NCBI RefSeq assembly: GCF_034259205.1
Contig: NZ_CP139487.1
Coordinates: forward strand, 1,798,001-1,862,000
Length of the DNA stretch: 64,000 nucleotides
From: Peredibacter starrii
Lineage (GTDB): Bacteria; Bdellovibrionota; Bacteriovoracia; Bacteriovoracales; Bacteriovoracaceae
Direction: 5' to 3'
Within the stretch, counting starts at the first letter, position 1. The number at the start of each line of letters is the position of its first letter. The notes below the pieces were generated by a model, which had not been told where the DNA came from, made no database searches, and saw nothing but the letters and a program-made list of their open reading frames with translations. Both the position numbers and the translations under genes were made by a program. Shown here piece by piece: positions 28,677 through 30,466 of this stretch.

Positions 28677-28696
28677 TGTGGTCATACGTCAAAAAA

Positions 28697-28708
28697 CCTT
28701 TGCAAAGG
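28697..28708. promoter_or_regulatory. Palindrome CCTTTGCAAAGG overlapping the SD
   Basis: A perfect 12-bp palindrome centred on TTGCAA; its right end is part of the AAGGAG SD of the gene at 28717. It may be an operator or chance. The same TTGCAA core occurs in the TonB operator-like repeats at 38551-38569. Confidence 0.25.
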
Positions 28709-28716
28709 AGCACGAT

Positions 28717-29553
28717 ATGGCCAAATTTTATTCAAGTGATTCCCCGCTCGAAGTTGACTCTGAATCATCTCACGCCTTAATCAGTCTGCGCGCAATCGGC
28801 GCAGGCCTCGTTATCAGCTTTTTCACCATGACCGGCCTTCTTGGCCTGGGTCTCGCTTTTGGAGGCATTGGGCTTGAAGATGGATTTTCCGCTAAAAGCG
28901 CCGGAGTCTTCACTGGTGTTTGGTTTATTGTTTCTGCATTAATCTCCATTTTCGTCGGCAGTTACTTTGCCGCTCGAGTTTCTAAGTTTCGTTTGGGCCG
29001 TGTGGGCTCCGCTCAAGGTCTCGTCATTGCGGCCTTGTTTCTAGGATTCTTCCTTTATCAAACTGTCGCCGCCATTAGCTCCGCCGGAAGTCTTGCTGGC
29101 TCCGCCATCGGAAAAACTGCGGGCGCTTTAGGTCAAGGTGCTTCAATGGCCTCTCAAAATGATGCCATAACCGGAACCCTACGCGGGATCACTCAAGACG
29201 CTTTAGGCGACTTGAATCTCCGTTCAAATCCAACTGAACTTGCTCAGTCCATTGGCGGACGTCTCCTTCGCGGTGATACCGAAGGTGCTAAAAACATCCT
29301 CGCTCGCGAAGCCGGCATCACTCCAACTGAGGCCGATTCAAGAATTGCTATCATGAAAAGCCAAGTTGATAAGGCCATGACTGATGCCCGTGAGGGTACA
29401 GCCACAGCTCTTAAATCAACTGGCTGGTCACTATTCTTGTTAGTGGCACTTGGTGCAATTGCTTCAATTCTAGGTGGGGCACTGGGATCAGTGGCCAACT
29501 TTAGAAGACCTCTCGTTCGAGAAGGTTATTTCAACCGCGAAGTTCGTGCTTAG
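28717..29553 (+). CDS. Polytopic membrane protein of unknown function
   Basis: 278 aa from ATG 28717 behind AAGGAG. Hydrophobic segments at about 22-45, 65-87, 98-120 and 240-265 suggest four membrane helices. Between the third and fourth lies a 115-residue soluble region rich in Ala/Gly/Thr (NDAITGTLRGITQDALGDLN and ARDA-type helices). The ends are polar. No conserved motif or cysteine is seen. Resembles the many uncharacterised Gly/Ala-rich inner-membrane proteins of Bdellovibrio relatives. The 3' end overlaps the HNH gene by 23 nt (convergent). Confidence 0.7.
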   Translation: MAKFYSSDSPLEVDSESSHALISLRAIGAGLVISFFTMTGLLGLGLAFGGIGLEDGFSAKSAGVFTGVWFIVSALISIFVGSYFAARVSKFRLGRVGSAQGLVIAALFLGFFLYQTVAAISSAGSLAGSAIGKTAGALGQGASMASQNDAITGTLRGITQDALGDLNLRSNPTELAQSIGGRLLRGDTEGAKNILAREAGITPTEADSRIAIMKSQVDKAMTDAREGTATALKSTGWSLFLLVALGAIASILGGALGSVANFRRPLVREGYFNREVRA

Positions 29554-30388
29554 TTTCAGGGCGGGTCAATCCCGCCCTTATTCTTGCTCGCTGATTGCAG
29601 GGTGAGCATAATATTCTCAGATTATCGTTGCTACTTGGTCCTCCCATTGAAAAGGGAAGAATATGGTCATAATGTAAATTGCGAACAGAACCGCAGTTGG
29701 TGCATTTTTTATCTCGCGCGTACACGTCTCTTTTTACGGAAGCTGGAATTGCTCTTCCTACTTTCGCTGGCGAAAGTGATTGTCTCGGTTTGGTCTGTTT
29801 GAATTTAGATTTCTCCACAGCCTTGATGGCCTCTTTCGCCATAAATTGCACGAGCTGATCCATGTCGAGATCTTTGCCGATTAGGTCTTTAAGTTTTTCA
29901 ACATATGCCATCGTTTCATCAGTCAAAACAAATGCGACTTGTATTTTATCTTTTGAAACACGTTTCTTTTTATCTTTTGGTTTGTCTTCTTTGCCAGTTA
30001 TTTCAAAAAGCTTTTTCTCACATTCGTTCTTAGTCAAATTCTCGACTTCTTTCAAAACCTCACGACGTTCATTTGGATCTTCAATGAATTGATTCACTAA
30101 TGAAATATTCGTGAGATTTAAGCTTCCATCTTCGATTTTTGCTTCAATCTCGGGCATTTCTGCCAACGCTCGAGCGGCAACGATTCGTCTTTGGGCCGCG
30201 CCTTCTGAATAACCTAATTCATGTACGCAATAAGCGAAAAGCGACGAATATTTTAAGTCGCAATAGAGCTTTCTTCTCTCTATTTCTTTCAAGTGATGAA
30301 GAAGTTTAGTCGTGGCACTTCTTTCAGCGCTCACTAACTTTTTTGTGTCACCCAGTAAAATTTTATTTGCAAGATGTTTTAGTCTCAT
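29531..30388 (-). CDS. HNH endonuclease family protein
   Basis: 285 aa. The C-terminal HNH/McrA-type domain is complete: IPASVKRDVYARDKKCTNCG, LHYDHILPFSMGG, SNDNLRILCSPCN, with two CxxC zinc-like pairs and the His-Asn-His core. Residues 20-110 form a helical region (EIERRKLYCDLKYSSLFAYC, YSEGAAQRRIVAARALAEMP) typical of DUF222-like/HNH proteins common in Bdellovibrionota. It could nick or cut DNA in mobile or host-defence roles; target unknown. Distinctive regulation: a consensus promoter with direct repeats in the spacer, no leader, and an 18-bp near-palindrome within the gene and again upstream. Start ATG 30388. Confidence 0.8.
   Translation of the reverse strand: MRLKHLANKILLGDTKKLVSAERSATTKLLHHLKEIERRKLYCDLKYSSLFAYCVHELGYSEGAAQRRIVAARALAEMPEIEAKIEDGSLNLTNISLVNQFIEDPNERREVLKEVENLTKNECEKKLFEITGKEDKPKDKKKRVSKDKIQVAFVLTDETMAYVEKLKDLIGKDLDMDQLVQFMAKEAIKAVEKSKFKQTKPRQSLSPAKVGRAIPASVKRDVYARDKKCTNCGSVRNLHYDHILPFSMGGPSSNDNLRILCSPCNQRARIRAGLTRPETKHELRG
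29760..29777. repeat. 18-bp near-palindrome in the HNH gene
   Basis: ACTTTCGCTGGCGAAAGT (16 of 18 positions self-complementary) matches 30449-30466 in inverted orientation at 17/18 positions. The pair flanks most of the HNH gene. Confidence 0.6.
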
Positions 30389-30394
30389 GCTAGA

Positions 30395-30423
30395 AAGATA
30401 CGGAAATTGTACGGATATGTCAA
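30395..30423 (-). promoter_or_regulatory. Strong leaderless promoter of the HNH gene with direct repeats in the spacer
   Basis: On the minus strand: TTGACA (30423-30418), a 17-nt spacer and TATCTT (30400-30395). The -10 ends 6 nt before ATG 30388, so transcription should begin at the start codon. On the minus strand TCCGTA occurs twice 11 nt apart (complement of 30410-30415 and 30399-30404) inside the spacer and at the -10 edge, as expected for an operator. Confidence 0.6.
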
Positions 30424-30448
30424 CTGCAAAAAAAGGAGGTTCAATTTC

Positions 30449-30466
30449 ACTTCCGCCAGCGAAAGT
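30449..30466. repeat. Second copy of the 18-bp inverted site, upstream of the HNH promoter
   Basis: ACTTCCGCCAGCGAAAGT; its reverse complement differs at one position from the copy at 29760-29777. It lies about 26 nt upstream of the HNH -35. Confidence 0.55.

Follow-up and report, generated by a model that had tools for sequence, protein, structure and literature searches.

Closest described systems

To our knowledge, DUF222-HNH genes are abundant repeats, some of them in the LexA regulon of M. tuberculosis, and their function is not settled. The 13E12 or REP13E12 repeats of Mycobacterium are described as encoding multi-copy DUF222-HNH proteins, some belonging to the LexA regulon, with traits of mobile elements (PMC5005354, PMC4181829, PMC10589994). 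The 13E12 repeat family of M. tuberculosis is the nearest functional parallel to the gene reported here, as both show a dispersed multi-copy gene, a C-terminal HNH domain, a DUF222-like N-terminal part and a link to LexA. However, our protein falls under the DUF222 cut-off, and we considered it as distant kin and did not file it as a member. The mycobacterial family was compared by description only, and in the mostly non-subscription literature covered we found no description of matched palindromes at or inside 13E12 genes, nor of palindromes linked to such HNH genes.

REPIN/RAYT systems likewise associate a gene family with short imperfect palindromes, which stand alone or form inverted pairs spaced by about 100 bp. 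There the protein is a Y1/HUH transposase, whereas here it is an HNH protein, a LexA box lies between the paired ends, and no conserved GTAG or CGTC tag stands beside the palindrome in the flanks inspected by eye. The DNA-binding domains of ParB, Noc and KorB may share with our protein the predicted fold of residues 18-135, but here no CTP-binding N-terminal domain was matched, an HNH domain is fused and there are many copies per genome. IscB/Cas9-type HNH nucleases were among the best sequence matches of the HNH part (NCBIfam IscB, 34.2 bits against a cut-off of 175 bits; PDB 9k2z); only that part matched, and neither a RuvC part nor a guide RNA was seen.

We analysed a stretch of 64,000 nt (hereafter, the window) of the Peredibacter starrii genome, which is a single contig of 4,153,408 bp. 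Our main reading, to which we assign a probability of about 0.6, is that its HNH gene belongs to a SOS-controlled selfish (mobile) gene family, in which a ParB-like domain would recognise an 18-bp palindrome and the HNH domain would cut DNA in order to spread. If this is true, it would be a mobile nuclease tied to DNA damage in which ParB-type recognition serves a selfish element. The system is small and testable: it has a probable LexA operator, a candidate palindrome site and a predicted fold for DNA binding, and there are gene-less derivatives and unoccupied sites to compare.

The HNH gene and its surroundings

The features of the gene, in coordinates of the window, are the following.

29531..30388, minus strand: ORF of 285 aa for the DNA-binding/HNH protein (ORF and Pfam)
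30395..30423, minus strand: promoter TTGACA-17-TATCTT, whose -10 ends 6 nt before the ATG
30399..30415, minus strand: putative LexA (SOS) box TCCGTACAATTTCCGTA, over the -10, a direct repeat common to SOS genes
30449..30466, no strand: upstream palindrome U, ACTTTCGCTGGCGGAAGT on the gene strand, at the left end of the DNA common to ten copies
29984..30388, minus strand: N-domain, codons 1-135, helical, ParB/Noc-like DNA-binding fold in the model, weak DUF222 match
29792..29965, minus strand: possible ribbon-helix-helix domain, codons 142-199, weak (VIA Z 3.2-4.5)
29760..29777, no strand: internal palindrome I, ACTTTCGCTGGCGAAAGT, encoding LSPAK in the disordered interdomain linker
29564..29752, minus strand: HNH nuclease domain, codons 213-275, with two CxxC zinc-binding pairs
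29556..29580, no strand: hairpin rich in G+C at the element's right end; most copies have a similar one at the 3' end

The HNH domain of the window protein was detected by Pfam with an E-value of 8.7e-9. The initial annotation of this DNA had placed TTGACA-17-TATCTT 6 nt before the ATG; we found it there and nowhere else in the window, where shuffling predicts 0.09 occurrences. Since the gap from the -10 to the ATG is of 6 nt and is constant within +/-1 nt across ten close copies, the mRNA is probably leaderless. At the other end, the last 23 bp (29531-29553) of a convergent neighbour gene (28678-29553, plus strand) are overlapped by the HNH ORF, and because of this overlap the last residues of the window protein are unlike those of the other copies. 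The hairpin at 29556..29580 is likely a terminator shared with this neighbour.

The 18-bp near-palindrome reported at 29760-29777, with an inverted copy at 30449-30466, was also recovered: U is I inverted, with one mismatch. Besides these two, no match to ACTTTCGCTGGCGAAAGT with up to three mismatches occurs in the window, where 0.05 were expected. The two sites had been described as flanking the gene, but I sits within it, between the DNA-binding part and the HNH domain; moreover, no clear palindrome marks the right end of the element in this genome, which means that the pair U and I does not enclose the gene in full. The similarity among full copies starts at about U (30449..30466). The repeated unit, of about 0.9 kb, comprises palindrome U, the LexA-box promoter, the ORF with internal palindrome I and the terminator hairpin.

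A probable LexA box in the promoter

The hexamer TCCGTA does occur twice, 11 bp apart, at 30399-30415 in the HNH promoter, as had been noted. We scanned the genome for TTGAC-N4-MCGTA-N2-TTTT-MCGTA at up to two mismatches, with the reversed pattern as control, and obtained 17 places against 0. The core TMCGTA-N5-TMCGTA has 21 exact places, namely at 10 HNH copies, 5 short elements, recN (2), recA, umuDC, dinB and one gene that we take, from its sequence and outside NCBIfam, to be GFA-like; the box of lexA is one mismatch away. Places of the SOS box are L250, L270, L248, L252 and L268 (443938, 923734, 366266, 1607461 and 3615016 of the genome, respectively). RecA, LexA, RecN, UmuDC and DinB were named via NCBIfam, the matches of RecN, UmuD and UmuC being under the curated cut-offs. 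At one mismatch the core gave 36 rows versus 24 control rows, and because this control was not clean we used only the exact boxes and lexA.

In nine relatives, the exact pattern gave 59 rows versus 6 control rows. There we examined 28 loci, of which 22 were at SOS genes (recA 3, lexA 4, recN 6, umuDC 7, dinB 2), five at HNH genes and one at neither. Beyond the close clade the box is also found at the HNH genes of the genomes G094, G095, G097, G102 and G080, and none of the HNH copies examined outside the genus has it.

As the same repeat precedes recA, recN, umuDC, dinB and lexA here and the SOS genes of relatives, we take TMCGTA-N5-TMCGTA as the probable LexA box in this genus of Bacteriovoracaceae. 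This predicted box is a direct repeat, unlike the TTAC-N3-GTAA published for Bdellovibrio bacteriovorus (PMC8565304). With high confidence, the HNH genes would be under SOS control. The initial annotation had suggested autoregulation; a regulated promoter is indeed what we see, but the TCCGTA repeats shared with SOS genes indicate that the main control is probably LexA and not the protein itself, while U, beside the promoter, may contribute some autoregulation.

Copies of the palindrome in the genome

A genome-wide count of the 18-mer, which had been proposed as a check, gave 42 places at up to one mismatch, far above chance: the reversed pattern gave 0 at up to two mismatches. Of the 42 sites, 17 belong in our assignment to HNH copies (19 if two sites with two mismatches are added) and eight to the paired short elements; a tandem array of 54-bp units has four, and the other 13 are single. 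By a rough caller of ORFs of 70 codons or more, nine of the single sites are clearly intergenic, two are in ORFs shorter than 100 codons, one falls within the final 45 bp of an ORF and another inside a long ORF. All ten close copies have U, and nine have an intact I, which in the remaining one (L046) is interrupted by some 15 additional nt. Inspection by eye of the flanks of the ten copies revealed no target-site duplication, which counts against movement as a transposable element.

The short gene-less elements, five in number, carry U, then the LexA box, then an inverted palindrome. In four of them the site starts are 95-107 bp apart, and the fifth is longer, with a degenerate left copy. RNA folding of these elements gave no common structure.

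Inverted pairs about 100 bp apart resemble REPINs, and the genome has four Y1_Tnp genes. On this view a RAYT (Y1/HUH) transposase would mobilise the palindromes (ACTTTCGC) as ordinary REP/REPIN repeats, which simply invaded the HNH genes. This explanation is disfavoured, and we consider it highly improbable: the Y1_Tnp genes have no palindrome closer than about 50 kb, the G096 genome has ten palindromes and no Y1_Tnp match, and the positions of U and I are fixed in paralogs and orthologs. Two genes of Y1/RAYT type (L221:1434, L222:948) have a different hairpin nearby, about ATATGCCCC...GGGGCATAT, which we considered as a separate REP family.

Host parS sites were also tried as a source of the palindromes and rejected, only five weak parS-like places being found, none overlapping a palindrome.

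Several arrangements of the sites were recorded in passing. At L067:3570-3805 (3180569-3180804 of the genome) four tandem 54-bp repeats, or five with a degenerate one, each contain the palindrome, and this array directly precedes a short LexA-box element. A 25-bp tandem array with the palindrome variant ACTTTCTCCAGCGGCAGT lies at L044:3689-3881 (1235188), and a palindrome-like word is found in 18-bp tandem repeats inside a predicted ORF around 3448 of L060 (2666947). The loci L063:3710-3729 and L068:3410-3429, 0.5 Mb apart, have a common left flank of about 20 bp, TGTCCAAAAGGTGCCAGGTT, by the palindrome site, hinting at a longer repeat or an insertion target.

The gene family and its evolution

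Ten homologs of the window protein are encoded in the same genome. Nine are 76-89% identical to it, one being truncated after residue 211, and the tenth is 47% identical, hence 11 HNH genes, ten of them close paralogs and one remote. The remote gene (L051:3926-4723; 1985425-1986222 of the genome) lacks both the LexA box and the palindrome. The copy L048 stops at I, its HNH domain having been lost. HNH-only fragments in G096 were considered as breakage at the internal palindrome, a reading that we dropped, as the fragments stop at contig ends.

Homologs at E <= 0.001 were found in 64 of 129 genomes of the family, many of them weak, and in 14 of 26 genomes of the genus; other family genomes have up to 19 scored HNH copies. 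Plasmid and viral collections gave only HNH-domain matches to the window protein, and PADLOC only weak matches to the HNH part. A tree built from 42 proteins places our genome's ten close copies in one group (support 100/97), and the pairs from G082, G096 and G094 each group together (100/100). Copies cluster by genome, which indicates that each lineage amplified its own. The units have multiplied separately in several genomes of one genus, with gene-less derivatives and single palindromes alongside.

Among eight full copies, dN/dS was 0.02-0.12 in 26 of 28 pairs, the other two having no dS estimate, and dS was 0.8-3. Such values point to strong purifying selection on every copy compared; a dS of about 1 or more suggests an old divergence, and our genome gives no sign of a recent burst, a point against the selfish-element reading.

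This selection, together with the tight SOS wiring of the copies, could be expected of a nuclease that serves the host, or of a self-destruct system, whose copies are kept to cut or mark the chromosome at the roughly 40 palindromes after damage. The distribution of the sites would also fit, as 22 of 28 palindrome loci are in the central half of the contig (p 0.004), which would be distant from the origin and lie around the terminus, to judge from weak parS-like sites close to the end of the contig. We nevertheless considered a host-serving nuclease as unlikely, because the gene is absent from 12 of 26 genus genomes, amplification went genome by genome, a site lies within the nuclease's own gene and gene-less copies of the element ends occur. 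The family is, in our judgement, quite probably a mobile one.

Co-variation and constraint of the palindrome

We counted the palindrome in the 26 genus genomes with the query ACTTTCGCCGGCGAAAGT at up to two mismatches. There were 42 sites in our genome, 17 in G082, 10 in G096, four each in G081 and G087, one in each of four genomes and none in 17. More than one site is found in only five of the 26 genomes, all five with HNH copies; the 12 genomes without HNH have 0 or 1. The centre of the palindrome is CA or TG in our genome (TA in two sites), and CG in G082 and G096 with one exception (CA, in G082). Within the internal site, proline is encoded by CCA in our genome and by CCG in G082 and G096. 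The palindrome changes alike at gene-internal and scattered sites between relatives.

The S-L-S-P-A-K codons have zero synonymous differences in eight copies, even though dS between copies is 0.8-3, and form the longest such run of the gene, while 44 of 217 usable codon columns have none; random draws of five codon columns were equally invariant in 57 of 200000 cases. A second invariant run, of five codons, is near the start codon.

Other lineages have palindromes that differ from this one and yet are matched, as at both ends of the two HNH copies of G094. Sites of the G094 palindrome number six in G094 itself, where four belong to the two HNH copies, and six in G084; two genomes have one each and 22 have none. 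At the two G084 loci inspected, which are away from the HNH genes of G084, no HNH homolog was found. Beyond the close clade we counted perfect palindromes whose arms have a length of at least 9 over 77 loci: there were 8 upstream, 4 in the gene and 2 at the end, against 1.1, 0.85 and 0.25 expected, respectively. The excess is clear and concerns a minority of loci, and some of these palindromes may be terminators; most HNH homologs beyond the close clade have no matched palindrome pair.

Predicted fold and DNA binding

The structure was modelled from ten aligned sequences (mean pLDDT 76), a single-sequence model with pLDDT 42 being discarded. The model has a helical N-domain (pLDDT mostly >90), two weak strands plus two helices, a disordered linker (196-212), part of which is encoded by the internal palindrome, and the HNH domain. 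In VIA-align, the first 14 rows for the N-domain were all DNA-binding domains of ParB, Noc, Spo0J, KorB or SopB, with Z from 9.2 to 4.5 (best 7bnr_B, Z 9.2, rmsd 2.7, 101 aligned), and the remaining ones for this region had Z of 4.1 and lower; by the aligner's own notes, Z below about 13 can be meaningless for helical domains. Residues 147-200 matched one MatP row (Z 4.5) and others as ribbon-helix-helix.

Foldseek gave nothing at E <= 0.001 (best 0.17, ParB at E 0.19), and a profile of the N-domain against PDB sequences found no ParB. Among 37 N-domains there was one match to HTH_ParB (E 0.016). For DUF222, the window protein scored 16.2 bits, below the Pfam cut-off of 24.4; 18 of 38 full proteins matched at E <= 0.1. 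With the N-domains alone, 25 of 37 reached E <= 5, the best of them 1.4e-5. All 38 full proteins have the C-terminal HNH domain.

ParB/Noc-type DNA-binding domains bind palindromes, and both parS and the Noc site (NBS) are palindromes with TTTC, as in the palindrome here. It is fairly likely that the N-domain binds the palindrome. A correlation between the recognition helix and the palindrome sequence is no more than suggestive, the G094 protein that we compared having L in place of the R67 of nearly all the others. That the palindrome is this protein's own site, as the initial annotation had proposed, gains indirect backing from the ParB/Noc-like N-domain, the co-variation and the synonymous constraint, while nothing spoke for the role in immunity proposed along with it.

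The same fold, the possible ribbon-helix-helix part with MatP among its matches, and the dispersal of palindromic sites far from the presumed origin would suit a SOS-induced chromosome organiser of the ParB/Noc/MatP kind with an HNH domain, the scattered palindromes being structural binding sites and not scars of movement. We considered this quite unlikely: the ParB CTP-binding domain had no Pfam match in the window protein or the 38 full proteins, our protein beginning with the predicted DNA-binding fold, and ten similar genes, patchy in the genus, would not be expected for a nucleoid factor.

Putative insertion sites and proposed mechanism

Genes for citrate synthase (gltA) were found in 22 of 26 genomes, and two of the 22 (G082 and G096) have an HNH copy at the 3' end, within the inspected flank of 0.5-1.5 kb (0.25 kb in G096 itself, where the contig ends). 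In G096 the junction of the element is inside the gltA terminator stem, whose left arm ends ...CGCAAGAG with the element next; in relatives the terminator hairpin is whole, and gltA of our genome has no element. This presence and absence could also be due to loss.

The insertion inside a host terminator stem in G096, the HNH fold and the lack of a transposase domain recall a free-standing homing-type HNH gene. Such a gene would cut unoccupied terminators or palindromes and enter them when the double-strand break is repaired; the palindrome would then serve for recognition only, and the element ends as such would not be acted on. The short inverted-palindrome elements, however, suggest action on the ends themselves, and make this version very unlikely in our judgement.

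We return to the SOS-controlled selfish gene and describe how it might work. LexA would repress the HNH gene until DNA damage. The protein would then dimerise on the palindrome via its ParB/Noc-like N-domain, perhaps helped by the ribbon-helix-helix domain, and the HNH domain would nick or cut DNA at or near the palindrome; for cutting at the palindrome in particular we put the chances slightly short of even. Repair or recombination would copy the unit, or any DNA between two inverted palindromes, to new places, and new copies would favour gene ends and terminators.

Tentatively, and with rather more doubt, this may be a new class of SOS-triggered bacterial mobile element without a classical transposase, built on a ParB/Noc-like-HNH protein, with a palindrome at its end and in its own linker, which also moves gene-less pairs and whose palindrome drifts with the protein by lineage. 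The SOS-regulated DUF222-HNH (13E12) repeats of mycobacteria would then be explained in the same way.

Finally, by eye, the G096 elements (L133, L134, L135, L136, L137, L155) seem to bear further terminal inverted repeats, about TATTACCC..CATCTT, one at the right end and the other about 30 bp beyond U on its outer side.
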